The notes beneath the pieces are model-generated. The model saw only the letters and a program-made list of their open reading frames with translations. It made no database searches and had not been told where the DNA came from. A stretch of DNA of 64,000 nucleotides from an uncultured Roseovarius sp. GTDB taxonomy: Bacteria; Pseudomonadota; Alphaproteobacteria; Rhodobacterales; Rhodobacteraceae. The number at the start of each line of letters is the position of its first letter. Position 1 is the stretch's first letter. Position numbers and translations under genes: made by a program. Location: positions 2,708,001-2,772,000 of the forward strand of contig OX638333.1 of NCBI GenBank assembly GCA_951812895.1, given 5' to 3'. Positions 4,528-23,533 of the stretch are shown here, piece after piece.

Positions 4528-5546
4528 TCAGGCGATTGGCTGCCGGTATTCTTCTCCCTTTGTCAGGATCGCCCAGATGATCCGGGCAGATTTGTTGGCC
4601 ATGGCGACTGTGGCCAGCCTAAAGGGTTTCTGATCGAGTAATTTCGCTGTCCAGATTCAGCCTTCTCAGGCTTGTTCCTCGCCATGAGCGCCCGCGATGT
4701 CATTCCGACGATCAAAAGCTTGCGGATGTATCGGTCACCCTTTTTGGTTATGCGACCAAGGCGTTCCTTACCACCACTGGACTTGTTCAGCGGTGTGAGG
4801 CCCAGCCAAGCCGCCAGATCACGCCCGGTTTCGAGCTGTTTCGCGTCGCCAATGGTGGCAACAACAGCTGAAGCTGTGATCGGGCCGATCCCTGGCATGC
4901 GCATCAACCGCCGCGCATCGGTATCCAGCCATGCGTGCCGTTCGATCAGTTTCGTCAGCCCGTCGATCCGAGCATTGAGGCCATTCAGCTGATGACACAT
5001 CACACCGAGAATGCCGTCTGCGATCTCGGGCATTTCCGACTGCTCTTCGGTGCCGTGTTCTCGTGCGAACTTGGACACCGCTTCGATACCCGTTGGCAGG
5101 ATGTGACCAAACTCACGAAGTATGCTGCGGATCATGTTCACGACCTGAGTGCGCTGCCTGACGACCAGATCGCGCGCCCGATGGATCGCAAGAACCGCCT
5201 GCTGGTCTTCGGACTTGATCTCGACAAAGCGCATGGTGGGGCGGCGCACAGCTTCGCAGATCGCTTCTGCATCGGCCGCGTCCGTCTTGCCACGCTTCAC
5301 ATAGGGTTTGACATAGGCCGCTGGCATCAACCGGACGTCATGACCAAGCTTGCGTAGTTCGCGGCCCCAGTGATGGGCCGACCCGCAGGTCTCCATGCCG
5401 ACGACGCAGCGCGGCAGCGTCTCCAAGAACGCCAGCAGCTTCGCGCGTTTGATCTTTTTGTTGATGAACTTGCGCCCCGTGGCTGAAACGCAGTGAACTT
5501 GAAAAACGTCCTTGGCCAAATCCAGGCCTACGGTCTTTACTGTCAT
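4528..5546 (-). pseudogene. IS110 family transposase, frameshifted near the C-terminus
   Basis: DEDD-type transposase of the IS110 family. The frame from the ATG at 5546 has the RuvC-like start VGLDLAKDVF (first Asp), VVGMETCGSAHHWG (Glu) and KTDAADAEAI (two Asp). The C-terminal Tnp20 block is MRMPGIGPITASAV, with AAWLGLTPLNKSSGGKERLG after it. After ARNKPEKAE the frame goes out of register and ends at 4563. The minus-strand reading in a neighbouring frame restores the expected tail (WTAKLLDQKPFRLATVAMAN, then WAILTKGEEYRQPIA) with a TGA at 4528-4530. A single-base change near 4650 therefore breaks the gene. The essential Ser region lies before the shift, so residual activity cannot be excluded, but it is probably dead. 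Confidence 0.85.
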
Positions 5547-5990: not shown

Positions 5991-6878
5991 TTAAGACGGT
6001 CGGTTGAAGGCTGAAAGCACCTGTGCTGCCAGCGCTTTTGCATTTTTGTCAGGTTTGTCAGAGATTCGGAGCACGATTTGCGTGTATGGAAGCTTGGGCA
6101 GGTCCTCGTTTATACAAATTGATTGGTTACATTTTGTAATGCGGCTGAGCGGTAGCGCGGCAACCGCAAGATCCGCCCGGATCGCCGCGAGCTGTGATTC
6201 TGAAACATTTGAAAGATAGGCAATTTGATAGGGAATACCGGCGCGTTTCAAAACATCGAGCGCGGCAAGACGCCATGGGCAACCGACAGATGCGACTGCC
6301 AGGCGCAGCGGGCGTTCCTGACTGCGTTGACCGTTTTTATGCGAAGCCCAAACCAGAGGCTGCTCATGGAGCAGTCGATCTCCTTCTTCAGGTGGCGCAC
6401 CCCCGCCGATCGTCAGAATTGCAACATCCAGCTCTTCTTCCGCCAGCATCACAGCCAAATCCTGTGCGTCGCCCGAGACGATCTCAACAGTGACGCCCGA
6501 ATGTGCTTGTGAGAACCCGGCCAAAATCTCTGGCATTCGCGTCTCGGCATTTTCCAGACATATCCCTACGCGCACTACCCCTTCGATATCCGGGCTTTGC
6601 ATTTCGGCAATAGCGGTATCGTTTGCCTGCACAATGCGGTGCGCATGCGGCATCAAACGTTCGCCAACTACAGACAGGCGCATGGCACCCTCAGCACGTT
6701 TGAACACCGGGGCCCCAACCAGATTTTCCAGCTTTTTCATCTGCATAGACACAGCAGCAGAGGATCGCGCCACCCGTTCAGAGGCCAGCTTTACCGAGCC
6801 GGTATCCGCCACGGCAATGAAGGTTTTGAGCACGTCAATTTCAAATCGCATCGAGCCGGGGATCATGGGTGCATTCAT
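5991..6878 (-). CDS. LysR family transcriptional regulator
   Basis: DNA-binding regulator of 295 residues, the normal LysR length. The winged helix-turn-helix is at the N-terminus: FIAVADTGSVKLASERVARS, then SAAVSMQMKKLENLVGAPVF. The effector-binding domain follows (VRVGICLENAETRMPEILAG onward). Starts at the ATG at 6878 or, more in keeping with the family, at MRFEIDVLKTF nine codons later. It is divergent from selA with about 175 bp between, so it could act on the selenium genes, but LysR control of selAB is not established and this is only positional. No operator (T-N11-A) could be picked with confidence. Confidence 0.88.
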   Translation of the reverse strand: MNAPMIPGSMRFEIDVLKTFIAVADTGSVKLASERVARSSAAVSMQMKKLENLVGAPVFKRAEGAMRLSVVGERLMPHAHRIVQANDTAIAEMQSPDIEGVVRVGICLENAETRMPEILAGFSQAHSGVTVEIVSGDAQDLAVMLAEEELDVAILTIGGGAPPEEGDRLLHEQPLVWASHKNGQRSQERPLRLAVASVGCPWRLAALDVLKRAGIPYQIAYLSNVSESQLAAIRADLAVAALPLSRITKCNQSICINEDLPKLPYTQIVLRISDKPDKNAKALAAQVLSAFNRPS

Positions 6879-7052: not shown

Positions 7053-8447
7053 ATGATGCGCATTGATGCGCCAAAACACCTGCCTTCGGTGGATCGGCTC
7101 GTGAACGCGCAGGCCGTGCAGGGCCTGGTGCAAGATCATGGCGCGCCATTGGTCACGCGCTCTGCGCAGGGCATCCTGGAACAGGCGCGCCAGAGCGTAC
7201 TTGCGGGCGGGACGACGGATATGGCGGCGCTGGTCCGGGCGCTTCGTGACGATATTGAACGGGTTTTGCGCCCCTCGCTCCGGCCTGTCTATAATCTGAC
7301 CGGCACAGTGCTGCACACCAATCTGGGCCGCGCGCCGTTGCCGCAATCGGCGATACAGGCGATGGTGGAGGTCGCGCGCGGGGCCAGCAATGTGGAGTTT
7401 GATCTGGACGCAGGCAAGCGTGGGGATCGCCACCGACACGCCGAAGCGCTGCTGTGTCAACTGACCGGGGCCGAAAGCGCGCTGGTTGTGAACAATAACG
7501 CAGCCGCCGTGCTCTTGACGCTCAATACCCTGGCGCGGCGCAAAGAGGTGCCGGTGTCACGGGGCGAGCTGATTGAGATCGGCGGAGCCTTCCGCATGCC
7601 CGATATCATGGCCCGTGCCGGGTGCAAGCTGGTGGAAGTTGGCACCACCAACCGCACACATAGGACCGATTTTGAGGCTTCTATCGGTCCCAGAACCGCC
7701 TTGCTGATGAAGGTCCATACCAGCAATTTTGAGATTAAGGGATTTACCAAAGAGGTTTCTGAACAAGACCTTGCCAGGATCGCACATGCCCATGATCTGC
7801 CCCTTGTCACGGATTTGGGCAGCGGCACGCTGATTGATCTGGAGCCCTATGATCTGCCACATGAAACAACTGTCACCGAGGCCCTGCACGCCGGGGCTGA
7901 TCTGGTCACGTTTAGTGGTGACAAACTGCTTGGCGGGCCACAGGCCGGTATCATTGCCGGCCGCCGCGATCTGATCGACAAGCTCAAACGCAACCCCATG
8001 ACCCGCGCCATGCGACCCGACAAAGTCACCCTTGCCGCCCTGCAAGCCGTTCTGCGGCTCTACACCAATCCCGCGCGTTTGGTGCATGAGCTGCCCGCGC
8101 TGCGCCTGCTGGCCCGCGACCCGGCGGAGATTGAACACTTGACGAGCCGTCTGGTCACCCCCGTTCAGGCGCGGTGCCAAGCCTTCGACGTAGCGGTTGC
8201 GCAAACCTTTTCCCAGGTGGGCAGCGGGGCCTTGCCCGTTGATAGATTGCAAAGCGCGGCTTTGAAGATCACGCGGCCTGATCTGCGCCGTCCCGGCGGC
8301 ACCCTGAACCGGCTTGCCAAGACCTTTCGGGATCTGCCGGTTCCGGTGATCGGGCGCATTTCTGAGGACGCGTTGTGGTTTGATCTGAGGTGTCTGGAAG
8401 ACGAAGAGGGCTTTGTCCAGAACCTGAAGGATCTGACCCTGCCATGA
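7053..8447 (+). CDS. selA: L-seryl-tRNA(Sec) selenium transferase
   Basis: SelA converts Ser-tRNA(Sec) to selenocysteinyl-tRNA(Sec) with selenophosphate, using PLP. The 464-residue protein has the expected length. Visible family blocks are [18 protein letters not shown], the glycine-rich GIAG-type turn, [20 protein letters not shown] and the PLP site [13 protein letters not shown], where the Schiff-base lysine is Lys291. AAGGAG at 7042-7047 precedes two adjacent ATG codons (7053, 7056); either may start. The stop overlaps the selB start in an ATGA, so the two are translationally coupled. First gene of selA-selB-tRNA(Sec)-selD. Confidence 0.97.
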
Positions 8448-10378
8448 TCATCGCAACGGCAGGGCATGTGGACCACGGAAAAACCGAACTGGTCAAGGCG
8501 CTGACAGGCATAGACACGGACCGTTTGCCCGAGGAAAAGGCGCGTGGGTTGTCCGTTGATCTCGGGTTTGCCTACCACAGGTTGCCCGATGGCCGGATTT
8601 TGGGGTTCGTTGATGTTCCGGGGCATGAGAAGTTCATTCGCAACATGCTGGCCGGGGTCGCGGGCATCGACCTTGGTTTGCTTGTGATTGCCGCCGATGA
8701 TGGCGTGATGCCCCAAACACGCGAGCATCTGTCGATCCTCGGCCTGTTGGGTATTCGCGAATATATCGTCGCCCTGACCAAGATTGATCGCGTCGCACCC
8801 GCACGCGTTCAGGACGTCACGGATCAGGTCGCCAGGCTTCTGGCAGGAACCGGGCGTGTCGACACCGCGATCTATCCCGTCTGCGCCCCCGATAACGAGG
8901 GTATCGGCGCGCTGATGAGCGCACTCTGCGAAAGGGCGAAAGCCGCGAATGCCCAGACCGTTGAGCAGCATTTTCGTATGGCGATTGATCGGGTTTTCAC
9001 GCTCAATGGTGTCGGCCTGATCGTCACAGGCATGGTGTTTTCCGGGACCGTCCAAACAGGGGAAACCCTGACACTTTCGGCAGACGGATCCCAAGTCAGG
9101 GTGCGAGGGATCAAGGTGCACAACAGGGCAAGCGCGTGTGCAAAAGCTGGTGAGAGATGTGCCATCAACATCGCCGGTCGCGGCCTGAGTGAAAAGTCCG
9201 CCCGGCGCGGAAACTGGTTGATGCAATCCAGCCTATACGTCCCGACCCGGCGTATCGACGTCGAATTGCAGGTTCTGGAAAGCGAAACCGTCCCGTTGAA
9301 ACACTGGACGCCCACCCATCTGCATATCGGTGCCGATCACCTGTCCGCGCGCGTCGCGGTCTTGTCGGGCGGTGCCATTCCTGCGGGCGCGTGCGGATTG
9401 GCACAACTGGTGGTGCCGCGCGACGCCTTTGCACTTCACGGTGATCATTTCGTGCTGCGCGATCAATCTGCCCGACGCACAATTGCGGGCGGGTGTGTGA
9501 TTGATCCGTTTTCGCCCAAACGTGGCCGGGCAAGACCCGCCCGGATTGCGGCCCTGAACGCGTTGCGGCACCGAACCCCGGCGGATGCCCTGACCGCGCT
9601 GACAGATATTAGCGAAACCGGCGTCTTGCTTGCCCCCTTTGCTGTTGCACGCAATATTCCCGCACCTCGTTTGGACAGTTTGATCGAAACGCTGGGATTG
9701 CGGCGGGTCGGTCCGCACGCAAAACAATGGGCTTTTGCCGAGACACAATGGCGCGCATTGCTGGCCAAAATCATCCAGGCGGTCGAGGCGTTTCACCTGT
9801 CCAGCCCAATGGCCCCCGGCGCGAGCATCAAGGACATTCAGCGGGCACTTTCCCCCAGGGTTGAGGCCGCGATCCTTGAAGAGGCGCTTGCCGCATTAAC
9901 CTATCAACAGCGGCTGCATATGCACGGCACCCGCTTTCATATGCCGTCACATTACGCCCAAATTCCCAAGCGAGACCAGCAGCTTCTGGCGCGTGCGATC
10001 CCCAAACTGGCCCCGGCCTCTGGCACCCCGCTCAGCCTGCATCAGGCTGCGAAGGACCTGAGCGTTGATGTCAGAACCCTTGAAGCCGCGTTGAAAGCGG
10101 CCTGCAAATATGGCGATATGGTTCTGATTGGTAAAAACCGCTATGTCCCGAAACCCTATCTGGCCACGCTCGGGGTCATTGCCGCGCGGCTGGCCAAACT
10201 TTCCCCCGATGGTCAGTTCACGACGGCCGAGTATCGGGATCAGACGAAATTGGGCCGAAATTTTATCATTGAATTTCTGGAGTATTTTGATCGGCAGGGT
10301 TTCACAGAACGGAATGGCAATGCACGTCGCATTCGGCGTTCCGGGGGGGATGTTTTTAAGGTAACACATGATGGTTGA
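8444..10378 (+). CDS. selB: Selenocysteine-specific elongation factor SelB
   Basis: SelB carries Sec-tRNA(Sec) to ribosomes halted at a UGA that is followed by a SECIS hairpin. The protein of 644 residues starts with an EF-Tu-like GTPase: G1 [15 protein letters not shown]3 [12 protein letters not shown] and G4 TKID. OB-fold domains follow. The C-terminal 250 or so residues have the winged-helix repeats that bind the SECIS RNA. The start at 8444 is set by the ATGA overlap with selA and by the usual [12 protein letters not shown] beginning; the open frame to 8390 is not used. The gene ends only three bases before tRNA(Sec), so the tRNA is probably cotranscribed. Confidence 0.97.
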
Positions 10379-10381
10379 TAT

Positions 10382-10477
10382 GGAAGAGGATCGCACCCCG
10401 GTGGGGCGCCTGGATTTCAAATCCAGTGAGGGGCGTACAACGTCTCTGGTGGGTTCGACTCCCACGCTCTTTCGCCA
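10382..10477 (+). tRNA. selC: tRNA-Sec (anticodon TCA), selC
   Basis: 96-nt tRNA. It starts GGAAGAGG and ends GCTCTTTC-G-CCA with CCA encoded. The anticodon loop GGATTTCAAATCC gives anticodon TCA, which reads UGA. The D arm has the long CCCC-GGT-GGGG stem typical of Sec tRNA. The variable arm is long (GAGGGGCGTACAACGTCTC) and the T arm is GTGGG-TTCGACT-CCCAC. It lies between selB and selD in the same direction. Confidence 0.96.
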
Positions 10478-10483
10478 ACCTTA

Positions 10484-12706
10484 TTGGATGCCCTTTACAG
10501 AATGGCCCGGACAATGAAGCAATCGCACCCTATCGCGCATGATCTGGTGTTGGTGGGCGGCGGGCATACCCATGTCGAAGTGCTGCGCCAATTTGCCATG
10601 CGCCGCCCGGACGGTATCAGGCTGACGCTGATTTCACGGGATATCGAAACACCTTATTCCGGCATGTTGCCCGGATATCTGGCGGGACATTACCGGTTTG
10701 AAGAGTGTCACGTTGACCTGTCCCCCCTTGCGATGGCGGCGGGCGCGCGGCTGTATCAATCCAACGCGGTCGGTTTGGATTTATCAGCGGGTCGCGTGTT
10801 GTGCCCGGATCGTCCATCAGTGGCATTTGACACGGTGTCTTTCGATATCGGCTCCACCCCTGCGCGGGCCGCGATAAGCGGGCATGAACACGCTTTGGCC
10901 ATTAAACCCGTTCATGCCTTTCTGGATCAATGGCGCCGCGTTGAACCTGGCCTGCTTGCCCTTGGCCGAGAGGTTGAAATTGCCATCGTGGGCGGTGGTA
11001 CCGGCGGTGTCGAACTGGCCTTGTGCCTGCATCACCGCATTCGTACGGCGTTTAAGGCGGCGCAAAAGTCCAACCGCGTCAACGTGCATATCATCACGGA
11101 CAAAGCCGACATCCTGACCACCCATTCCGCAGCTGTGCGTCGGCGCCTGCACGCAGCGCTTCGGCGCAAAAACATACGGGTTCACACGGGCCAAACGGTG
11201 GATTGCATACAACAGAACGCGGTTCATGGATTGGATGGTTTCAGGTTGGGCACGGATGTCACGGTTATCGCAACACATGCCAGCGCACCGGGCTGGTTAC
11301 AGGACACCGGCCTTGCGCTGGATGATGCCGGGTTCATCCGTGTGAACAACCAACTTCGATCTGTTTCGGACCCACGGGTCTTTGCCGCAGGTGATATCGC
11401 GTCGTTCAATCCGTCGCTGGCCAAGAATGGCGTCTACGCCGTGCGGCAAGGTCCGGTTCTGGCGCAAACGCTGCGGACGCTTCCGGGCCCCAAACCTGCG
11501 GAAGTCTTTTCGCCGCAAAAACGGACCCTTGCGCTGATCTCCACAGGGGATCGCAATGCGATTGCCTCTTACGGGCCGCTGGCGGTGCAAGGTGCCTGGG
11601 TTTGGCGTCTGAAGAATTGGATAGATCAGCGTTGGATGGACAAATACCGTTCGTTGAAGATGGGCAGCACCTCAGAGATGTCTGCGATGCGCTGTGGTGG
11701 GTGCGGTGCGAAAGTGCCCGCAGACCTGTTGGGTCAGGTGCTGTCAGAGTTTCAGACCGACGAAGATGACGACATCCTGATTGGTCTTCGCGCATCGGAC
11801 GATGCTGCGGTGACGCGCCCGCCGCCGGGGAAGGTCGCGGTGCAGACTGTGGATCATTTCCGAACGTTCATGGACGATCCGTATCTTTTGGGCCGTGTTG
11901 CCGCGACCCATGCGCTGAGCGATGTCTATGCCATGGGCGCTGACCCCAGCACTGCGCTGGCGCTGGTCACATTGCCTTTCGCAAAAGAGGCGGTTTTGGC
12001 GGAAGACCTAAGGCAGCTGCTGCACGGCGCACAGGAGACCCTGCGCGCGGCAGAGGTCAGGCTGGTCGGTGGTCATACTGGCGAAGGACAAGAATTGGCC
12101 TTCGGCCTGTCCGTCACCGGATATGCCGACGAAGATAAATTGATGAAGAAATCAGGCTTGCACGCGGGTGATGTGCTGATCCTGACAAAGCCGCTGGGCA
12201 CGGGGGCGCTGTTGGCGGGCTGGATGCAAGGCCGCGTCAGGCATGATGATCTTAAGCCCGCAATCCAATCTATGCTGATTTCAAACCGGCAGGCCGCCCG
12301 TATTCTGGTCGCCCACGGGGTGTCCACCTGTACGGACGTGACAGGCTTTGGACTGCTGGGGCATCTGGGGGAAATCGTCACCGCGTCGAACGCCCATGCC
12401 GTGATTGACCCGCACTGCATTCCGATACTGCCGGGGGCCGCGGCGTTGCTGCGGGATGGCGTCAAAAGCACATTGCATCCCGGCAATATCGACGCCGCCG
12501 GACGGTATATGAAGGCAGATACTGACCTTGCCAATGCGGATATCCTGTTTGACCCGCAAACCTCGGGCGGATTGCTGGGCGCGATTCCGAGCGCGTCGGC
12601 TGACAAGGTGATAGATGCCCTAAGGCTAAACGGTGCACACCACGCGGCCGCCATTGGCCGCGTGACCGAAGGCGAATCCGGGCGTATCAGCCTGGAGCGC
12701 CTTTAA
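10484..12706 (+). CDS. selD: Fusion of FAD/NAD(P)-dependent oxidoreductase with selenophosphate synthase SelD
   Basis: Two-domain protein of up to 740 residues. About residues 1-385 form a pyridine nucleotide-disulfide oxidoreductase-like domain: dinucleotide site LVLVGGGHTHVEVLRQFA, a second site IAIVGGGTGGVELALCLHH, and the FAD-binding motif VFAAGDIASFNPS. About residues 400-740 are SelD, which makes selenophosphate from selenide and ATP. It opens with MRCGGCGAKVP (the catalytic Cys and a following Lys) and includes LVGGHTGEGQELAFG and FDPQTSGGLLG. Starts at 10484, 10502 or 10514 are possible. Fusions of this kind are known. The N-terminal domain may supply reduced selenium to SelD (inference). 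Confidence 0.93.
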   Translation: MDALYRMARTMKQSHPIAHDLVLVGGGHTHVEVLRQFAMRRPDGIRLTLISRDIETPYSGMLPGYLAGHYRFEECHVDLSPLAMAAGARLYQSNAVGLDLSAGRVLCPDRPSVAFDTVSFDIGSTPARAAISGHEHALAIKPVHAFLDQWRRVEPGLLALGREVEIAIVGGGTGGVELALCLHHRIRTAFKAAQKSNRVNVHIITDKADILTTHSAAVRRRLHAALRRKNIRVHTGQTVDCIQQNAVHGLDGFRLGTDVTVIATHASAPGWLQDTGLALDDAGFIRVNNQLRSVSDPRVFAAGDIASFNPSLAKNGVYAVRQGPVLAQTLRTLPGPKPAEVFSPQKRTLALISTGDRNAIASYGPLAVQGAWVWRLKNWIDQRWMDKYRSLKMGSTSEMSAMRCGGCGAKVPADLLGQVLSEFQTDEDDDILIGLRASDDAAVTRPPPGKVAVQTVDHFRTFMDDPYLLGRVAATHALSDVYAMGADPSTALALVTLPFAKEAVLAEDLRQLLHGAQETLRAAEVRLVGGHTGEGQELAFGLSVTGYADEDKLMKKSGLHAGDVLILTKPLGTGALLAGWMQGRVRHDDLKPAIQSMLISNRQAARILVAHGVSTCTDVTGFGLLGHLGEIVTASNAHAVIDPHCIPILPGAAALLRDGVKSTLHPGNIDAAGRYMKADTDLANADILFDPQTSGGLLGAIPSASADKVIDALRLNGAHHAAAIGRVTEGESGRISLERL

Positions 12707-12714
12707 GCGTAAAT

Positions 12715-13950
12715 CTACCACCCAGCGGCTGACGTGCCCGGCAACGGACCCTCGGACCAGAAACGCGGCGCCATCAGCGACATCTCAACAATCTGAAGCA
12801 TCACCTTATTGTCAGACGCGACTGACACAGCTTCGAGCAACAGCAGCATTCGCCCGGTCCTGGTTTCCTCCCAGAACCATTTGCCCATCAGCTCCAGATC
12901 ATCAATGCCGTCGCGGTGGGTACGCGTTTCGGTGAAATAGGCCTCAAGATCCTCAACCACGAGTTTCAGCAGCGGAATGGCCGGCATGCCTTTTCTGGGG
13001 CTTTGGGGAATTTCCCCGCCCAGAAACCCGGCCACAAAGGGCGCAAGCTCTTCTATGGCAAGCTCGCTGGCCCCGACCGTGGTGCGCCCCCGCGCGGCCA
13101 CGGCGGCATCGTAATCCGGTCGCAGCGCCTGCATTTCGGCATTCACCTCGGCCAGAACGGCCCCCACATCGCCGATATCATCAACGCTCAGAACCAGCTC
13201 AGGCGGCAATGCATAGCCCATGCGCCCGTATTTCACCGGAATGACCTCGGGGAAATCTTCGATCACCGGTCCTTCCGTGGCATCAAACAGCTCAAATGCG
13301 GCGCGGATCACCTTTTTCTGGAACGCCGGATCATTGGGTTTGCCCATGCCACGCCCCATTGGGAAATCCAGAAACAGGGACCGGGGCGGTTTGATCGCCT
13401 CGATATGCTCGCGGACAAAGCCGACCAGAACAGTCGATAAGCCCTCAGATTCAAAGTAATGAGCCAGCCCGCACACGGCGCGCGTGCAAAACGGTCATAT
13501 GGGGATCAGGAAGACCGTATTCACACCTTCCTGCTTCATTTGTGCGGCAGCTTTCCGGGCGGATTTTTCCATGGTGACGGGATCAGCAGCCCCCATAAAG
13601 GAATAGTGTTCTTCTGCAACTGAACCGAGTTCGCCCTCACTGGCCATCTCTTCAAGCCGGTCAAGCGGGATGATTGTATTCAGGTCCTGCTGCCAGGCCG
13701 AACGGTCAAACTCAACCGCGACATGGGTCATCACCAGATCGCGGTCGGATTTGTGAAAGGCCCGGTAATCCTTGGCCAGCCAGGAAAACGGTTTGTCCCC
13801 CCGTATGTGCACGGCTGCGGTAGAAACAATTGATATGCGCCGCTCATTCGCGGGCAGGGGGGGCACCCACGAAGGATCCTCTATGACCGGCAAGTCGAGA
13901 TTTGAAATGAACCCCCGGCCGACAGCAGGCATCTCTGAAATTCTGGTCAC
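12715..13950 (-). CDS. Selenoprotein of the glycine/sarcosine/betaine reductase B (GrdB) family, with in-frame UGA (Sec)
   Basis: One gene read through an in-frame TGA at 13497-13495. Upstream half: ISIVSTAAVHIRGDKPF, HVAVEFDRSAWQQDLNTIIP, LDRLEEMASEGELGSVAEEH, YSFMGAAD, ending NTVFLIPI. Then Sec, and PFCTRAVCGLAHYFESEG, VREHIEAIKPPRSLFLDFP and GRGMGKPNDPAFQKKV without any break. Both halves match the GrdB family in order, and neither makes sense alone. Sec152-Pro-Phe-Cys155 is a selenenylsulfide-type redox motif. The start is the GTG at 13950, with GCAGGAG seven bases upstream and an N-terminus (TRISEMPAVGR) like family members. Total 411 residues. It converges on selD eight bases away. No GrdA or GrdE partner is in the window, so the substrate is unknown. 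Confidence 0.9.
13468..13494 (-). promoter_or_regulatory. Bacterial SECIS-like hairpin after the Sec UGA
   Basis: Directly downstream of the UGA (13497-13495) the mRNA reads CCGUUUU, then GCACGC-GCGCC-GUGUGC. This makes a six-pair stem (one G·U) with a five-base loop, extendable by weak U·G pairs. Bacterial SECIS elements lie inside the coding region starting a few bases after UGA, as here. The loop was not compared with a covariance model. Confidence 0.6.
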
Positions 13951-14289
13951 ATCAATACTCCTGCGTTGGATCACGCACTGTGTTGCCCGATAATGAAACG
14001 TCAACAGCGATGCAGCAAGCTAAACATATTGAACTCAGTATTCAGCTTGGCTGAATCACAGATGAACAACCTGGAGCGTATGTTAACCTCAAAGACAGCA
14101 CCAATCCCGGTATGGCCCAAATCACGGACAAAAGTGCAGTATTGGCAACACTGCCGGACTGACAACACAGTGAACTTAGGTTCCGTCGAGTTGTCTGGGC
14201 GATCTTCGCTATTCTAACCCCGCCAAAAGCCCTACTCGGGTGTCGGCCAACACACCAAAGCCTGCGATTTTTCAGTTGCCAAGTTTATT

Positions 14290-15564: not shown

Positions 15565-15587
15565 CGCGAAGGACAAGGAGAATGGAT

Positions 15588-16909
15588 ATGCAAAATTTTG
15601 GAAAAATCGGCCTTGCTGCTGCGATAATCGTGCTGCCTCAGATGGGAGCTGCTCAAGACACAGATACGACACCACTGAATGCCGATATTGGCTTTATATT
15701 TACGACTTTCATGTTTTTGGTCTCAGGCTTTTTAGTCTTCTTCATGGCCGCCGGATTCGCCATGCTGGAAGCCGGGCTTGTCCGTGGCAAAAATGTTGCC
15801 ATGCAGTTGACGAAGAACGTAGCGCTCTTTTCGCTCGCGTCACTCTTTTACTACATTTTGGGCTATAACCTGATGTACCCCGGTGACGCTTGGACGATAT
15901 CCAGCATCCTTGGCGCGTTTTCGATAACCGGATTGGAACCTGTGGGCCTTGAGGGCACAGAAGCAGATCTTACCTACGCATCAGTTGGTTCTGACTTCTT
16001 TTTCCAGCTGATGTTCTGTGCTGCTACCGCATCGATCGTTTCTGGTGCATTGGCTGAACGGATCAAGCTGTGGCCATTTCTTGCCTTTGTGGTGCTGTTG
16101 ACTGCGGTGATCTACCCGATCCAGGCCAGCTGGAAATGGGGCGGGGGTTTTCTGGACGCGATGGGCTTTCAGGACTTCGCCGGTTCAACAGTGGTGCATT
16201 CGGTGGGCGGCTGGGCCGCGTTGACCGGGGCGATCATTCTGGGGCCGCGGCTGGGCAAGTACAAAAATGGCAAGGTCAACCCGTTTCCTGGTTCCAATCT
16301 GGACTGGCAACGCTGGGCACGTTCATTCTGTGGCTGGGCTGGTTCGGCTTCAACGGTGGTTCACAATTGTACATGGATACCGCCGGTAATGTCGCCGATA
16401 TCAGCCGCATCTTTTCGAACACCAATACCGCAGCGGCGGCTGGGGCATTTACCGTGCTGATCTTGACGCAGGTGATGTACAAGAAGCCTGACCTCACCAT
16501 GATCCTGAACGGTGCGCTGGCGGGCCTGGTTTCAATCACAGCCGAGCCACTGACCCCCACGCTGGTTGAAGCGACACTCATTGGTGGTGTTGGCGGTGCG
16601 ATTGTGGTCTTCGCGGTGCCCTTGCTTGACAAGATGAAAATTGACGATGTTGTCGGCGCAATTCCGGTGCATCTGTTCGCAGGTATCTGGGGTACCATTG
16701 CTGTTGTCTTTACCAATGATGCCGCGAATGTGCTCACGCAGCTTTACGCGATCATGATTGTCGGGGTTTTCGTTTGTGTAACATCGGCTCTTGCTTGGAT
16801 GGCTCTCAAATTGACAGTAGGTTTGCGGGTCGACGAAGAGGCCGAAATCAACGGCCTTGACATGGCCGAACTGGGCATGGAAGCCTATCCGGAGTTCAAT
16901 CCGGTATAA
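15588..16909 (+). pseudogene. amtB: Ammonium transporter AmtB, with a frameshift
   Basis: Inner-membrane ammonium channel, normally paired with GlnK. The first frame (from the ATG at 15588, with AAGGAG seven bases before) gives a signal peptide ending at GAAQ, and then FMAAGFAMLEAGLVRGKNVA and STVVHSVGGWAALTGAIILG (pore region). Near 16300 the frame breaks: after GKVNPFPGSN the continuation ATLGTFILWLGWFGFNGGSQ is in the next frame and runs to the TAA at 16907-16909 through PVHLFAGIWGTIAVVF. One base appears to be lost in AATCTGGACTGG compared with what the family needs. Joined, the two parts give about 440 residues, a full AmtB. Either a true recent mutation or a sequencing error. Confidence 0.85.
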
Positions 16910-17132: not shown

Positions 17133-17256
17133 CCATTGCTCCTGCAAAGCAAGACTTTTTTGAAGCTATTGGCGATTTGTCAGATACGGTTTTTGGACCT
17201 GTCCCGGAATTGTTCCGCTCCTTTGACTTAGTATTTTGCCACAAAGGAGAAACATC

Positions 17257-17892
17257 ATGGCACGGAAACCAGCCCCGGAATTCCACGCCGAAGCAGTGCG
17301 CGTAGAGTTGACGAGCGGCTTGCCGCGTAAACAGATGGCTGCAGATTTTGGGATCGGCTTCTCAACACTGAGCCGCTGGATCCAGCAGGATCGGCGCAAC
17401 CCAGAGAAGCCAACCGTCCAGTCCGATCTCGAACGCGAGGTCGCGGAGTTGCGGAAAGAGAAACGTATACTCCGGGAGGAGAGGGATGTTCTAAAATCGT
17501 TTGCAATAAACCTGAGGCATCAGATTTTTGGGAAACGTCGCAACATCAATACGTTGTCGGGACGTTTTTCGCCAAACCTGATTCAGGTTTAACGAAATCC
17601 GCTTTAAAAAAGGCCACGGATAGCAAGCACAGCTTCAACATCGCGCCGAACCTGCTGAACCGGGGCTTCCATGCAGACCGCCCGAACCAGAAATGGGCCG
17701 GTGACATCAGCTACGTCTGGACGCAGGAGGGGTGGTTGTATTTGGCCGTCATCCTCGATTTGTATTCCCGGCGCGTCATTGGTTGGGCCGTCAGTAACCG
17801 GATGAAGCGCGACCTTGCGATCCGGGCTCTGAACATGGCCATCGCTTTGCGCAGAACGTCGAAGGGCTGCATCCATCACACGGATCGCGGAA
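17257..17892 (+). pseudogene. IS3 family transposase, OrfA and part of OrfB, interrupted
   Basis: OrfA starts at the ATG at 17257 after AAAGGAG. It has the helix-turn-helix ELTSGLPRKQMAADFGIGFS and the leucine-zipper-like tail REVAELRKEKRILREERDVL. At DVLK the 117-bp element (17491-17607) begins. After it, OrfB integrase-core sequence resumes: DSKHSFNIAPNLLNRGFHAD, NQKWAGDISYVWT (first Asp), LAVILDLYSRRVIGWAVSNR and GCIHHTDRG (second Asp). The front of OrfB (HTH_21) and everything after HTDRG, including the last Glu, are missing. Dead remnant. Confidence 0.85.
17491..17607 (+). mobile_element. 117-bp MITE-like element, copy B, inside the IS3 remnant
   Basis: Ends CTAAAATCGTTTGCAATAAA and AACGAAATCCGCTTTAA. 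It aligns over its full length with the inverse complement of 14290-14406. It interrupts the IS3 OrfA frame at the codons for DVLK, so it arrived after the IS3 copy. Confidence 0.75.
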
Positions 17893-17987: not shown

Positions 17988-20900
17988 TCAATAATCCCGT
18001 TCAAAAAAGATCCCCACGCCACTGGACCCATCAGAGCCGGCACTGCCTTTGAGGGTTAAGCTGGGAGAGAGATCCAGATTTAAATTGATCTCTCGTGTCC
18101 CGTCTTGCCCGGCAGTGACTTCTGAGTAGATGTTTTCCGAGATGTAAGCCCCGGCACGAACCTGTGTTTCGCCACTTTCACTGGAAGTGACGTCCAGGTC
18201 GCTAAGGCCAAACAGGTTTCGTATGCGCCCTGTAATCCCTTCACCACCACCCCCGGTCAATGTTGCGATCGAGGAGGCCAGTTGTGCTGCCTGAAATGGG
18301 GAAATGGAATCGAGACCACGGCCAAACAGAAGTCGCGCCACCACTTCTTCCTGCGGAAGCTCGGGTTGAGAGGCAAATGTGATTTCTGGGGCACTGGCCA
18401 GCCCCTCAATTATGATCTGGACGAGAAAGTCGTTTGATGTGGTTTCGGCCACGAAGCGAAGATAGGGGTCAAACGCTCCCCGCAAATCAATCAAACCTTC
18501 GCTCAGGTCGAGCCGCTTCCCAAGTATATCCAGCCGCCCGCGGATAAGTTCGAAAACGCCACTTGGGATGACGTCGTTTGTGGTGCCACTCAGCCGAATG
18601 CTACCGGAAAGTTCACTGTCCAGCCCACGTCCCCGAACGAAGACACCTCTGGGGGCATTCACCGTTATGTCGAGCGGATAACTCGCAGAACGGCCCGAGG
18701 TGGTTTTGATCAACCCGGCCCGGCGCCGGGTGGTGCGCACATCTCGCGGCTCATGGATATGACGGATATCCACGGCCGTTCCGATCCCGGGCGTTCCCGA
18801 TGGAATGCGGATTTCTGTTTCAGACAGTTCCAGCCTTCCGGAAATCAGCGCGCCCCCGGTCAAAGGACCATTTACCGATAAACCGCCATCAACGCGGGTT
18901 TGATACAGGTTCGGATCCCGCAGCACGATACGTTCCAATCCGACATCGATGTTCGCCGAGTACGGGGCGCTTAGGGCAAGTGGCCCGCTGATCGTTAGAT
19001 TACCGCCCGCCTGGACCCGGGTGTTTATGTCGAGCACAGCCTGACGTCCCGATAGGCTGATCGTTCCCCGTAGATCCTGCAATGCCGTGTTAAGCCCGGG
19101 CAATGCCACCCGGGCAGGACCTAAATCGACCCGGCCCGACACAGCGTCCAAAGTGGCAGGACCCGTCATTGCAAGATTGAACACGGCCATGCCCTGCACC
19201 GATCGCGGCGAAATGAAACGATTAACAAGTCCAAGAGGCGCCCTGCCGGTTATTTGCAGATCGTTGTCAGCGCCAAATTCCCGAACCTCTCCGTTCACTT
19301 TGACACTGCCCCCATTGGGGCCAGTCGCATCAACAGAGAGCAAGATGTTTCCGTCATTCAGGTCTTGCAGTGTAAAGGCCCCATCAACACCCAACGGCCC
19401 GCCAAATCCGGGGGCAAATAAACCCAGGTTGGCCAACCTGGCATTCAGATCGACCGGCGCACCGGGGCCTGACCCCTGCATATCCAGCGCCAGTTGAGGT
19501 GTTTTCAGACGGACATAAACGATTTCAGCCTCCTGCCCGGCAAGCGCGCCATCGGCAGAAAACGTCAACACACCTTCAGTGAGTGCATCCAGCTCAGAGA
19601 TGCCGGTTTCAAATCCCTCCGCATTCAACTCTGCCTTGCCGCTGAACCGGGTGTTTTTCAGCTCTCCGTTTCCTCGCAGGACCAGGTCAATCTGCCCCGC
19701 AAGCGGGTGTTGGGTCAGGTCGGCAAATGCTGACAGATCGCTTACCTTCAAATCGAGGGTTCCGCTGACCGGCAGATCGGGATCTTGTGGGGACAATTCG
19801 CCAATGGCCGACAGGGTTGCGGCGTCGGTGGCAATGTCCAATTGCTGAAGACTTAACACACCGCCGTCGACCCAGTTGCCACGCAGGTCGACCCGCGCCG
19901 GACCGGACAAGGTTGGTTCTGCCAAAGAGAGATCGGAAAGGCGCGCAGAGAGTGTCAGTTTGCCCCGGTCAGTATTTAACTGCGCGCTGGCCTTTGCATC
20001 CAGAGCCGGGTTCTGCAGTGTCAAATTCCGGAGTGTCGTGCCGTCGGCATCTCGTTTCACGTCCGCCAAAAGCCGGGTGACCCCGGTCAAAAGTGGGTCA
20101 AGGCGGGCCTCTCCGGTGTGTAAATCTGTTGCTTGCCCTTCAAGTTCTAGATCGAATTCACCGCTGAGCAGGGTGAATTGTCCGTCAATCATAATCTCGG
20201 CGCTGCCGCCTAATTCGCGCTGCACAACAGTGGCAAAACGGGATAGGTCTTTCGCTTCGATCTGTAGGTTTGCCAGAACCGGAACACCCTGTGCGACGCT
20301 GTCGATCTGCCCCTGTCCGGATAGCGTGACATTACCACTGCGAAGATTCAGCTGATCAACCACAATCGGCTTGCCGTCCTGCCAACGCAGATCAACCGAT
20401 CCGGTCGCGGCTTGTCCGACGGCGTCTGATAGGTTTTTATCGGCAAGTTCCAACCCCAACAGTTCAAACAAAAGCACCGCGGTAATCGCATTTTCGGGGT
20501 TTTGTGCAATTACCCCTCTGCCTGAAAGGTGCGCCTTTGCAAGTGTCGCTTCGGGGCTGTGAAACTCGCTAACGGTGATATCCGCTTTCCAGGCCTCGCC
20601 GTGCTCATGATCATATTCCAATGAGAGCTGGGCGCTTTCGATCTGGGTTTTCCCCCCCGAAACAGGAAGCGTAACAGGCCCGCCTCCTGCAATGAGGCCA
20701 TTGAGTTTGAAACGTTGCGGCCAACCTTCTTTCGACAGGTGCAGGTCCCCGTTCAGGTTCAGCATTGCAGATCTCAGAAGCAGCGTTTCAATTTGCGTTC
20801 CGGTTTCCGAATTATTTTGCCCCGCAAGATGCAGCATCGTTTCTTCACCAAAGAAAGCCCGCATTTCCGGTGAGAACAATGGACGTATATCGCCTTCCAA

Positions 20901-21734
20901 TCGGGCGTCGAACTTTTGAACAAGGGAGGGGTCGTCAATTTCGCCCTGCGCCTGCATTTCCTCATAAAGCCGCACCTGGCCCCCCAGGCGCAGTTGCTGA
21001 TCCGTGCGCAGGGCAACATCGGCGGTGAAATCTGACAAAGGTGCGTCGCCCGTGACAGTTAGCTCCAGCGATGGTCGCTCGCTCATGCCCAAGAGGCCAG
21101 AGATTAACCCTCCGCTGCCCTCGTTTACACCCATATCAATCATCAGAACGCGGCCGTCGTTTGCATAGGTCGTGTTCAGGGCAATCTGATCTTCCGTACC
21201 AATCCGCGCCACGTTGAAACGGGCAGCTCCTTCACCAGCGTCAAGCGAGACCTTTCCGTCAAAGTTAAGCCGCACCGCTTCGCCCAAGACCGGAGCACCG
21301 AGGTCGACAACGTCGATCTTTACAGAATCGATGTTTATGGAGATCGGTAACTCGGGCAGTGCAAAGGGCTGTGCCACCGCATCTTCGGTGCTGACACTGC
21401 CAGCCGTCTGAGGCTTTCTTGGAATAATGATCTCTGCCGCGGTCAGTTTTTCGACCTCCAGACGGCCCCGCAACAACGCCGTCCGCGACCAGATAAGCGA
21501 AACCTCTTTGAGCGTTAACCAAACACCTTCGTCATCGGCGATCGTCAATTCGTCTAGTTCTGCGTTTGAAGATAATGCACCGCGAAATCCGGTAATTCTG
21601 ACCTCTCGTCCTGCATCAGACAAAGCATCTTCCAAAAGCTCCTGAAGATATCCTTTGTCTTCATCCGCGGCGGATTGGGCCCCTGCGGGAACGGCCGCCC
21701 AGAACAGCAGGCATATGAACGCAATGAACCGCAT
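17988..21734 (-). CDS. tamB: Translocation and assembly module inner-membrane component TamB
   Basis: TamB spans the periplasm from the inner membrane to TamA and serves in outer-membrane protein or lipid delivery. At 1248 residues it has the family length. The N-terminus is a signal anchor (MRFIAFICLLFWAAVPAGA). The centre is a long run of repeated beta strands (AsmA/TamB type, such as LTVTGDAPLSDFTADVAL). The last 350 residues are the conserved TamB domain: LDLSEGLIDLRGAFDPYLRF, EITFASQPELPQEEVVARLL, LFGRGLDSISPFQAAQLAS, ending GVGIFFERDY. Its ATG overlaps the tamA stop (ATGA), so the two are coupled. Confidence 0.93.
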   Translation of the reverse strand: MRFIAFICLLFWAAVPAGAQSAADEDKGYLQELLEDALSDAGREVRITGFRGALSSNAELDELTIADDEGVWLTLKEVSLIWSRTALLRGRLEVEKLTAAEIIIPRKPQTAGSVSTEDAVAQPFALPELPISINIDSVKIDVVDLGAPVLGEAVRLNFDGKVSLDAGEGAARFNVARIGTEDQIALNTTYANDGRVLMIDMGVNEGSGGLISGLLGMSERPSLELTVTGDAPLSDFTADVALRTDQQLRLGGQVRLYEEMQAQGEIDDPSLVQKFDARLEGDIRPLFSPEMRAFFGEETMLHLAGQNNSETGTQIETLLLRSAMLNLNGDLHLSKEGWPQRFKLNGLIAGGGPVTLPVSGGKTQIESAQLSLEYDHEHGEAWKADITVSEFHSPEATLAKAHLSGRGVIAQNPENAITAVLLFELLGLELADKNLSDAVGQAATGSVDLRWQDGKPIVVDQLNLRSGNVTLSGQGQIDSVAQGVPVLANLQIEAKDLSRFATVVQRELGGSAEIMIDGQFTLLSGEFDLELEGQATDLHTGEARLDPLLTGVTRLLADVKRDADGTTLRNLTLQNPALDAKASAQLNTDRGKLTLSARLSDLSLAEPTLSGPARVDLRGNWVDGGVLSLQQLDIATDAATLSAIGELSPQDPDLPVSGTLDLKVSDLSAFADLTQHPLAGQIDLVLRGNGELKNTRFSGKAELNAEGFETGISELDALTEGVLTFSADGALAGQEAEIVYVRLKTPQLALDMQGSGPGAPVDLNARLANLGLFAPGFGGPLGVDGAFTLQDLNDGNILLSVDATGPNGGSVKVNGEVREFGADNDLQITGRAPLGLVNRFISPRSVQGMAVFNLAMTGPATLDAVSGRVDLGPARVALPGLNTALQDLRGTISLSGRQAVLDINTRVQAGGNLTISGPLALSAPYSANIDVGLERIVLRDPNLYQTRVDGGLSVNGPLTGGALISGRLELSETEIRIPSGTPGIGTAVDIRHIHEPRDVRTTRRRAGLIKTTSGRSASYPLDITVNAPRGVFVRGRGLDSELSGSIRLSGTTNDVIPSGVFELIRGRLDILGKRLDLSEGLIDLRGAFDPYLRFVAETTSNDFLVQIIIEGLASAPEITFASQPELPQEEVVARLLFGRGLDSISPFQAAQLASSIATLTGGGGEGITGRIRNLFGLSDLDVTSSESGETQVRAGAYISENIYSEVTAGQDGTREINLNLDLSPSLTLKGSAGSDGSSGVGIFFERDY

Positions 21735-23533
21735 CAGAAGGCCTGTCCGATCCCTATGTAGAATTCAAACTGGCTGCCTGCATCGCTGTCCAGGGGTGTG
21801 CCCACATCAAGACGGATGGGGCCGATGCCGGTATCATAGCGGATGCCGAAACCGGAACCTCCCTGCCATTCCCCATTGTCAAATCCTATGCTGTCTTCTC
21901 CGATATATCCCGCGTCAACGAAGGCGACGGCAGATATTTTCTCACTGACCGGTGCCCGCACTTCGCCGGAGAGCCCCAGGAATGAACGCCCGCCAATTTC
22001 CAGCCCGCCACCTAGGTTGACCGACAAAGATTGATATGGTTGTCCCCGCACGGTGCCCGCCCCACCGGAAAAGAACAGGAATTCAGGCGGCACATCCGCA
22101 CTGCTTGCGCCCATAACCGACCCGACTTGCACCCGCCCGGCCAATACGACGCCGTTTTCGGACGCTCCAAGGGCCTGGTACTTTCGAACATCCGCGAAAA
22201 TGCGGGCGCCGGCGATATTTCGGTTGAGTCCGATAAAGGGTGTTGCATCCAGGGCCAGGAAGGATCCCCGCCGGGCGTCCAGTTCATTGTCTCTGCTGTC
22301 CCACGTCAGCTTTGAAGGCAGCAAGATATATTGGAGCGTTCGAGAACCCAGATCGTCGTTGATGTCAGAAAAACGGTAAGACAGGCCAGTCTCGCCTGAA
22401 AGATGGCTTGAAAACCTGTGTTTCAGCCCTCCGCCAATCTGGACGCTGCGCTCACGAAAATCCGGCTCATCACTTTGCTGGATGCGGAAATCCAGAAACA
22501 GGTCTGTGTTCGGAGAAAATGTAGCCGGGCGTTCAAATCGTGCCCCGAACGAGTAATCGATCCCTCCGGAATCTCCGCCGATCCCGCCGATCTCAGCATC
22601 CAGGCGAAGCCGTTCAGCACCTCCAAATAGATTCCGGTGTAACCAGAAAGAACTCAGTGTGACGCCTTCCAGTGAAGACAGCTCTGCCCCAAATCCAATC
22701 CTGCGCGGTGTCGCGGCGGTCAGTTCCGCCGTCACATCAAGGCTACCATCAGGATTGGGCGTATCCGCCTCACCCAATGCCACAGATTGAAAACTGCCCG
22801 TACGACGCAGGTTCTCGGCAGCGGTTTTGAGCACATCCGGCGAAAACACCTCGCCTGTGGGCAGGGCTGCAATCTCTTTTATCCGCTTTGCACGTACATT
22901 GCCGTCATTACCTACCTCAAGATCACCAAACCGCAATCTTGGGCCGGGTGAAAGTTGAATATCGGCAGACAATGTGTCGCTCCGATGATCCGCCGTTATG
23001 GTCTGCTTCGATACGTCCGCTTTAGCATGGCCCTCTTCGCGCCAGCCCTCTACACCAGCGCGCGCCGCGTCCACGATAAGATCACTTTTGGCAAGCTGAC
23101 CGGGTAAGAAACCCTCTGGTAACTCCGTCCCCGGGGCCAATGGCGACACACGTGCATGTGAAAACACAAAATGAGGGCCTGACTTAACGTGAAGCACAAT
23201 TTTTTGAACATCCGGCGGAGCGTTGAGCAAAGACAAATTGGCAGCTTCACGCCCGTCTACCAAGATACTCACTGTTCCACCATAATATCCGGAACTGTAT
23301 AGAACGCTTACCAGCCGGCCATAATCCGCTCGCGCTGCCGCTATCAGGTCCTGCGCTGATGCGGTTTCTTCATTGGACGCCTTGATGCTGACCGATGCAG
23401 AAATCAGCCGGTCGGTTACTGTGTCCGGCAGGTCCGGCGCCTGCAGCGTAACCTCAGCAGCTCCGGCGGGCAGGCAGGACACGAACAGGTAAAAGACGCC
23501 AAAACGTAGATATCTTCGAATAGAAGCAATCAC
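21734..23533 (-). CDS. tamA: Outer-membrane assembly factor TamA (BamA/Omp85 family)
   Basis: Omp85 outer-membrane protein of 599 residues, partner of TamB. A signal peptide ends at LPAGAAEV. POTRA-type repeats fill about residues 25-270, with YGRLVSVLYSSGYYGGTVSI as a clear POTRA block. The C-terminal beta-barrel contains the family motif FFSGGAGTVRGQPYQSL (the VRGY/F-like loop segment) and GSGFGIRYDTGIGPIRLDVG. It ends in IGIGQAF, with the terminal Phe needed for BAM recognition. Upstream gene of the pair; about 100 bp of spacer lies before its start. Confidence 0.93.
   Translation of the reverse strand: MIASIRRYLRFGVFYLFVSCLPAGAAEVTLQAPDLPDTVTDRLISASVSIKASNEETASAQDLIAAARADYGRLVSVLYSSGYYGGTVSILVDGREAANLSLLNAPPDVQKIVLHVKSGPHFVFSHARVSPLAPGTELPEGFLPGQLAKSDLIVDAARAGVEGWREEGHAKADVSKQTITADHRSDTLSADIQLSPGPRLRFGDLEVGNDGNVRAKRIKEIAALPTGEVFSPDVLKTAAENLRRTGSFQSVALGEADTPNPDGSLDVTAELTAATPRRIGFGAELSSLEGVTLSSFWLHRNLFGGAERLRLDAEIGGIGGDSGGIDYSFGARFERPATFSPNTDLFLDFRIQQSDEPDFRERSVQIGGGLKHRFSSHLSGETGLSYRFSDINDDLGSRTLQYILLPSKLTWDSRDNELDARRGSFLALDATPFIGLNRNIAGARIFADVRKYQALGASENGVVLAGRVQVGSVMGASSADVPPEFLFFSGGAGTVRGQPYQSLSVNLGGGLEIGGRSFLGLSGEVRAPVSEKISAVAFVDAGYIGEDSIGFDNGEWQGGSGFGIRYDTGIGPIRLDVGTPLDSDAGSQFEFYIGIGQAF

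Follow-up and report, generated by a model that had tools for sequence, protein, structure and literature searches.

The closest described relatives of the protein considered here are PrdB, a subunit of D-proline reductase, and the B proteins of glycine, sarcosine and betaine reductases. PrdB of the anaerobe Peptoclostridium acidaminophilum consists of 237 amino acids and contains selenocysteine (Sec), encoded by an in-frame UGA, in a UxxC motif; a PF09338 protein (PrdA/GrdE) is encoded directly upstream. GrdB, GrdF, GrdH and FarB belong to the same superfamily and carry Sec in a UxxC motif as well, and GrdE-type subunits serve the GrdB kinds. For the GrdB-like FarB, fluoroacetate reduction through a selenolate attack on the polar C-F bond has been proposed (PMC10838667).

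Selenoproteins assigned to PrdB are also known from marine metagenomes. In 2005, 42 Sec-containing "PrdB" proteins with UxxC were reported from the Sargasso Sea (PMC1088965), and in 2008 the Global Ocean Sampling (GOS) survey listed 235 of them (PMC2398784); in a later survey, proline reductase accounted for 6.4% of selenoprotein genes (PMC9402790). By these counts, it ranks with the most abundant selenoproteins of the sea. D-proline reductase is entered under TIGR04483 (PMC13188914, PMC9312934). As for Alphaproteobacteria, FdhA was the only selenoprotein known there in 2006 (PMC1794560), and Sec in this class has been treated as serving formate dehydrogenase (PMC8124441). Here we describe a PrdB-like gene of an uncultured Roseovarius sp. 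that lies in a 64,000-nt stretch of DNA (the window) beside the genes for Sec synthesis and insertion.

A single gene with an in-frame UGA

The selA, selB, selC and selD genes all lie in one 7-kb part of the window, and each scores over the cut-off of its model (Table 1), in agreement with the sequence-only reading of this DNA, which had recognized the Sec machinery next to the gene. SelD is present as an ndh-selD fusion, a type described previously (PMC2398784), with 311 bits for the TIGR00476 selD model (cut-off 125), 424 bits for TIGR03169 (cut-off 310) and 443 bits for TIGR04369 ("fusion_not_SelD"), the last being under its cut-off of 700.

Mechanical ORF listing yields two ORFs of one frame next to selD, 14004..13495 and 13476..12715, parted by a single TGA. 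If this TGA is taken as Sec, one frame of 411 codons is open up to the TAG stop. No AGGAG-type sequence precedes GTG 13476, the would-be start of the downstream ORF. Pattern scans for promoters and terminators gave no excess over shuffles. The sequence-only reading had correctly located the gene, the Sec at residue 152 of a 411-residue read-through protein, and the eight bases that separate it from selD, but had not given the strand; the gene runs on the minus strand, and a plus-strand translation of the same interval was discarded as not being this gene.

Table 1. Features of the Sec island and of the PrdB-like gene in the window (window coordinates)
Feature	Position	Strand	Remarks
LysR-type regulator	5991..6878	-	Pfam PF00126 and PF03466; divergent from selA
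selA	7053..8447	+	TIGR00474, 585 bits (cut-off 268)
selB	8444..10378	+	TIGR00475, 411 bits (cut-off 242); ORF opens at 8390, 8444 is the likely start
tRNA-Sec, anticodon TCA	10382..10477	+	68.5 bits
ndh-selD fusion (selenophosphate synthetase with CGGC)	10484..12706	+	convergent with the selenoprotein gene, 8 nt from its stop
PrdB-like selenoprotein gene	12715..13950	-	411 aa; GTG start 13950-13948, TAG stop 12717-12715
20-nt invariant run	13466..13485	-	six frozen codons; 28 close rows
SECIS hairpin (predicted)	13467..13483	-	17 nt, 11 nt after UGA; loop CGUGU; one G.G mismatch in the close clade
In-frame UGA (Sec152)	13495..13497	-	UPFC motif (Sec152-Pro-Phe-Cys155); UGA conserved, Cys in L111-L113
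Shine-Dalgarno-like AGGAG	13958..13962	-	7 nt before the GTG start

Several further features surround the island. Ten of 27 close stretches, with Roseovarius and SAR116 both among them, have a LysR gene at the position divergent from selA (several stretches end before this place, and the match to the LysR gene of the window was judged by eye); it is possibly a regulator of the island. An IS110-family transposase gene (4563-5546, minus strand; 306 bits, over the cut-off) is found a few kb from the island, and a weak IS3-like transposase ORF (17236-17592, plus strand; 36 bits, under the cut-off) on its other flank. Downstream of a P-II gene, the gene for an ammonium transporter of the marine subtype TIGR03644 (15582-16909, plus strand) is broken into two frames that overlap, with model positions 1-207 in ORF 15582-16460 and positions 199-404 in ORF 16070-16909; the frame break lies near 16300. 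It is either a pseudogene or a sequencing error.

Conservation of the UGA and cysteine homologues

The UGA was found at the equivalent residue in 30 of 30 full-length rows, i.e., in all 25 loci of a pattern scan of genome contigs and in five full-length rows among the 16 recovered from 248 genomes of the family (counted among the 30 are the window and two duplicates, L002 = L023 and L003 = L036). The remaining 11 of these 16 rows represent shorter paralogues, and nine of these contain no stop. Over 27 rows, the residues before the UGA average 82.6% identity to the window protein and those after it 84.3%. The claim of the sequence-only reading that this is one gene rather than two is borne out: the UGA is present in all these rows, the two halves are equally conserved, and no ribosome-site-like sequence precedes the second ORF.

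Outside the close relatives, we distinguish long forms, of the kind of the window protein, from short forms that cover residues ~30-227 only. Among 385 genomes sampled from the class, 49 (own included) possess a relative; there are 33 long rows with TGA in 30 genomes (own included), three full-length rows without TGA and many shorter paralogues (one of the 33 also contains TAG, one is frame-broken, and some stop at contig edges). In a sample of 398 genomes from the phylum, a relative is present in 16, the long form in the own genome only. No relative was found on viral contigs, and a plasmid search gave 24 records, none of which covers 80% of the query.

Three long-form genomes from three other families (L111-L113) carry Cys exactly at the Sec site, in a CPNCTR sequence and an uninterrupted frame. 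Such Cys homologues at position 152 had been named in the sequence-only reading as a point to look at, and these three full-length ones do align with Cys there. Since they fall within the Sec clade in a quick tree (23 forks of which stayed open), Sec is probably the earlier state in that clade. Several short forms also have Cys at this site. One of them (L160, G817:C1:2994380-2994946) still possesses the CCGTGAG apex of the hairpin described below; it appears to have switched from Sec to Cys recently, the SECIS being left as a relic. A short-form subgroup (L119, L120, L121, L123, L127) contains UPLDHQTVG, that is, Sec without the resolving Cys three residues on.

A predicted SECIS hairpin downstream of the UGA

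In bacteria, the SECIS element has a G in the first two loop positions and is spaced 11 nt after the UGA in E. coli. The hairpin predicted here, close behind the UGA, agrees with this loop rule. In the 28 close rows, a run of 20 nt that begins at +12, counted from the U of the UGA, is invariant at the DNA level, whereas the next longest invariant run in the 400 codons is 5 nt; of the gene's 10 degenerate codons that are invariant, 6 fall in the 20-nt run.

The hairpin was evaluated with 67 distinct UGA sequences, of which 17 are close, 32 distant long and 18 short forms. The best of 22 placements is a 17-nt hairpin that begins 11 nt past the UGA, with 90.0% of its 402 cells paired. The mean of the shuffles was 72.5%, with none of 500 as high, and slid partners reached at most 66.2%. 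Cells changed on both sides of the stem number 70 versus 15.2 in shuffles, although kinship inflates such counts. Most long forms have a GCGCGC-type stem and most short forms a TCAGAC-type one, the loop being CGUGN; the short forms with UGA have the element at the same place. Furthermore, 63 of 69 UGA rows possess the C-CGUGN-G apex, versus 1 of 35 among the Cys rows; the three inner pairs are present in 67 and 4 rows, respectively (by eye, one of these UGA rows and four of the Cys rows are spurious frames). We regard this contrast as decisive evidence for the predicted SECIS.

Some observations point the other way. The Cys rows keep 60% of the same cells paired, versus 89% in UGA rows, because related codons pair in part anyway, and the close clade has G.G throughout at one of the six pairs of the stem (0 of 17 sequences paired there). 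The hairpin of the window does not stand out when folded by itself (z -1.1 to -1.7), and the program favours another register; single-sequence folding was therefore dropped as a proof. Within the same genes, the mean fraction of equally stable windows is 0.08 for the close (n = 24), 0.25 for the distant long (n = 34) and 0.26 for the short forms (n = 16). As these energy tests are modest, the case for the SECIS rests on covariation and on the contrast to the Cys rows. A hairpin first read from the window alone, with a CGC loop, was replaced by the register with alignment support. Judged from these sequence patterns, the gene almost certainly encodes a selenoprotein with Sec at UGA 152.

Family assignment and domain structure

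The best NCBIfam match of the protein is PrdB (TIGR04483; 98.1 bits, E 5e-28), below the cut-off of 300. The next models, GrdH, TIGR01918, GrdF and GrdB, give 43 to 26.6 bits (E 3e-11 to 3e-6), all under their cut-offs; for the glycine/sarcosine/betaine protein B models (TIGR01918, TIGR01917, GrdF, GrdH), 26.6-43 bits compare with cut-offs of 65-800. The Pfam family GRDB (PF07355) is matched with 33.1 bits, over the gathering score of 22, at residues 78-147 only, and residues ~228-411 have no match in Pfam or NCBIfam. The sequence-only reading had seen the GrdB-type family on both sides of the UGA; kinship with the GrdB/PrdB superfamily holds, but PrdB is closer than GrdB and the last ~180 residues are unmatched.

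The predicted structure (pLDDT 77, pTM 0.73) consists of an alpha/beta domain followed by helices. Foldseek found no PDB match at E 0.001 or better, and a profile search of the PDB gave chance ferritin matches only. The 37 distant long forms and the window protein share 25 invariant positions, among them Sec/Cys152, P153, C155 and T156 around the motif, R63, H76, D82, R83, H115, R190 and Q211 elsewhere, and E272 and D334 in the additional C-terminal part.

The window protein is homologous to PrdB of P. acidaminophilum (L139) at residues 2-240, with 28% identity over 58% of its length. Unlike this PrdB, it possesses an extra, mostly helical part, and no PF09338 partner was found for it. It aligns only to positions ~268-379 of the ~430-residue GrdB-type models. 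The alphaproteobacterial short PrdB-like paralogues have the same N-terminal domain, with UPxC or UPLD and HQTV, but lack the C-terminal part, and many are Cys forms; two short Cys members are annotated as "glycine/sarcosine/betaine reductase selenoprotein B family protein".

The partner subunit (PF09338) was absent from 20 of 20 long-form carrier genomes including the own one, 17 of them at least 90% complete; in the positive control, the same search gave three matches on a clostridial plasmid, one of them just upstream of prdB. This agrees with the earlier statement that no GrdE-type partner is visible. In view of the PrdB score under the cut-off, the extra part and the missing PF09338 protein, we file the protein, by its sequence features, as a PrdB-like variant and not as a proline or glycine reductase; that it is no classical enzyme of either type appears very likely.

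Linkage to sel genes in other genomes

Among the close stretches (L114 shares its contig with L023; L115 duplicates L036 and was excluded), 24 of 26 contain a sel gene. It is lacking in L032, which lies at a contig end, and in L116, a locus of a close relative (G033) with 8 kb on each side of the gene. In the distant long-form stretches, a sel gene is present in 13 of 37, from eight family-level groups outside the close clade, and all 10 clustering-based sel labels tested there pass their models. None of 21 short-form stretches has one; the sole flagged gene (L131) is EF-Tu. The gene orders differ between lineages: the gene is convergent with ndh-selD in the window and in Roseovarius, upstream of a single-domain selD in several open-ocean Rhodobacteraceae (L020 tested), convergent with selB in SAR116, in line with selA-selB in Granulosicoccaceae (L041) and divergent from selA at L079 and L080. 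That the linkage has outlasted such rearrangement suggests that the sel genes and the long form work together, as supplier and user of Sec. In the quick tree, the SAR116 rows stand beside, not within, the Rhodobacteraceae rows, and horizontal transfer of the Sec island is plausible.

The other neighbours are diverse. When 96 near neighbours of distant long forms were compared with 96 distal ones drawn at random from 149, the glutathione transferase N-terminal domain and zinc-dehydrogenase-like proteins each occurred in 4 of 96 near and in at most 1 of 96 distal neighbours (top 25 families); these enrichments are weak, come largely from single families, and none indicates one substrate. Catabolic genes (CoA-transferase III, glutathione transferase, molybdenum hydroxylase, quinone-reductase-like) adjoin the gene in some lineages, again with weak enrichment. 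A short Cys form on a plasmid of Roseomonas haemaphysalidis (L141) adjoins the protein adenylyltransferase SelO, and a SelO-like ORF, identified by eye, is located near the long form at L041.

The Sec trait in the family

A tRNA-Sec of at least 65 bits is present in 7 of the 248 family genomes, the next best match having 54.5 bits. This line was set after the gap had been seen; Rfam's own cut-off, 47, is passed by 125 of the 248, and each of the 14 control genomes gives a match, in five of them over that cut-off. We read the matches below 65 bits as cross-matches to other long tRNAs. Three of the seven genomes (G000, G136, G224) possess the long form, and in two others (G023, G130) the gene of a PF00384 protein contains an in-frame TGA, as is the case for Sec formate dehydrogenase; on G130:C147, the PF00384 match with TGA (20846-22306) is 7 kb away from the tRNA-Sec (13519-13610). 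There thus seem to be two kinds of Sec island in this family. Two long-form carriers have no tRNA-Sec match of at least 65 bits, G033 (74% complete) and G245 (about 1,180 contigs). In G245 (L117/L005), the UGA long form lies beside selD while no tRNA-Sec match exceeds 54.5 bits; binning or assembly gaps may account for the missing tRNA-Sec.

In the own genome, seven PF00384, nine PF00578, six PF02627 and five PF01323 matches contain no in-frame TGA, and PF10262 has no match. The PrdB-like protein may therefore be its sole selenoprotein. The earlier description of it as the only evident Sec user in the window may thus extend to the genome, as far as these five families go, in which selenoproteins are common.

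Proposed function

We propose that SelA, SelB, tRNA-Sec and SelD from the adjoining genes supply Sec for the 411-residue protein, and that SelB would place it at UGA 152 with the aid of the SECIS hairpin. An alpha/beta domain of the PrdB/GrdB type would be formed by the first ~227 residues, its Sec152 selenolate acting with Cys155 as a two-electron redox pair. The last ~180 residues might replace the pyruvoyl subunit (PrdA/GrdE) or make it unnecessary; this role is a guess, given the middling structure model and the lack of a significant PDB match. The protein would then act alone as a reductase driven by thiols (thioredoxin or glutathione): the selenolate would attack a small electrophilic substrate, with cleavage of a C-X bond (X = N, S or halogen) or reduction of an oxidised group, both substrate and bond being guessed, and Cys155 would resolve the selenenyl intermediate. 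The Sec-x-x-Cys motif together with the charged residues of both parts would fit a reductase with a substrate pocket of its own. For an enzyme lacking a pyruvoyl subunit, one would naturally guess at substrates that react without a Schiff base.

We consider this proposal as a whole, a single selenoprotein with a Sec152/Cys155 pair working as a stand-alone thiol-driven reductase, to be probable. Its functional part, the stand-alone thiol-driven reductase with a redox role deduced from the motif and the domain, is taken to be rather likely; C-X cleavage specifically is a tentative guess.

Among the alternatives, the most probable is a general thiol-disulfide or peroxide reductase with a thioredoxin-like role, which would need no specific small substrate. 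Besides the UxxC motif itself, which in the case of PrdB has been counted among thiol-dependent redox motifs (PMC1088965), it could draw on the glutathione transferase among the neighbours in the f102 genomes and on a sub-threshold NCBIfam match to the protein disulfide oxidoreductase TIGR02187 (E 0.033). However, Pfam, PDB profile and Foldseek searches gave no significant match to a thioredoxin fold, and the invariant Arg, His and Asp residues across both parts suggest a specific substrate pocket, so that we regard this role as rather unlikely.

A role in selenium handling, as a selenium carrier to SelD or a sensor of Sec supply, would account for the repeated adjacency to selD: 9 of 37 distant long-form stretches have a selD no more than 600 nt away, its orientation varying, and in the window selD converges with the gene at 8 nt. 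It is nevertheless improbable: 24 of these 37 stretches contain no sel gene, selA adjoins the gene at L041, L079 and L080, G440, G543 and G551 each have two long forms, Cys versions exist, and a Sec protein required for making Sec would be circular.

Slightly less probable still is a conventional D-proline (or glycine/sarcosine/betaine) reductase subunit whose pyruvoyl partner is encoded elsewhere. PrdB is indeed the best NCBIfam match, PF07355 is over its gathering score, the UxxC motif is in common, and published surveys class such marine proteins as proline reductase; yet the PrdB score of 98 is far from 300, PF09338 is missing from all 20 carrier genomes with a positive control, and the protein has 411 residues rather than the 237 of P. 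acidaminophilum PrdB, with the extra C-terminal part. Two separate genes, or a pseudogene with a nonsense mutation, as the two listed ORFs might indicate, can practically be dismissed in view of the UGA in 30 of 30 rows, the equal conservation of both halves, the lack of a ribosome-site-like sequence before the second ORF, and the covarying hairpin with an apex mostly missing from Cys homologues.

Significance

The gene is a clean case of a selenoprotein broken in two by plain ORF calling, and in this sense the earlier description of it as hidden is justified. Its kind is not new, however, since marine selenoproteins assigned to PrdB were reported in 2005 and 2008, and the window protein is a variant of this known kind. 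The Sargasso Sea and GOS proteins likewise carry UxxC, belong to pfam07355 and come from surface-ocean bacteria (PMC1088965, PMC2398784), and, as far as these features go, they very probably include the protein family described here. In the portions of these reports consulted, there is no mention of a C-terminal part, a missing PrdA or linkage to selD or selB. Likewise, a search of open-access literature turned up no description of these three features, which does not prove that none exists.

Roseovarius aestuarii KCTC 22174 (L040), a carrier with a strain number, should allow culture tests of the proposed reductase. If it was the long form that the surveys counted, selenium has a major use in the surface ocean that is filed under an enzyme for which no partner was found, and the true reaction may be a different one. 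It is quite possible, if somewhat short of probable, that one of the commonest "proline reductases" of the surface ocean is in fact a single-subunit selenoenzyme with a helical partner domain of its own that probably cleaves C-X bonds, and that it is the main or only reason why some marine Rhodobacteraceae and SAR116 keep and acquire Sec, the whole travelling as one island.
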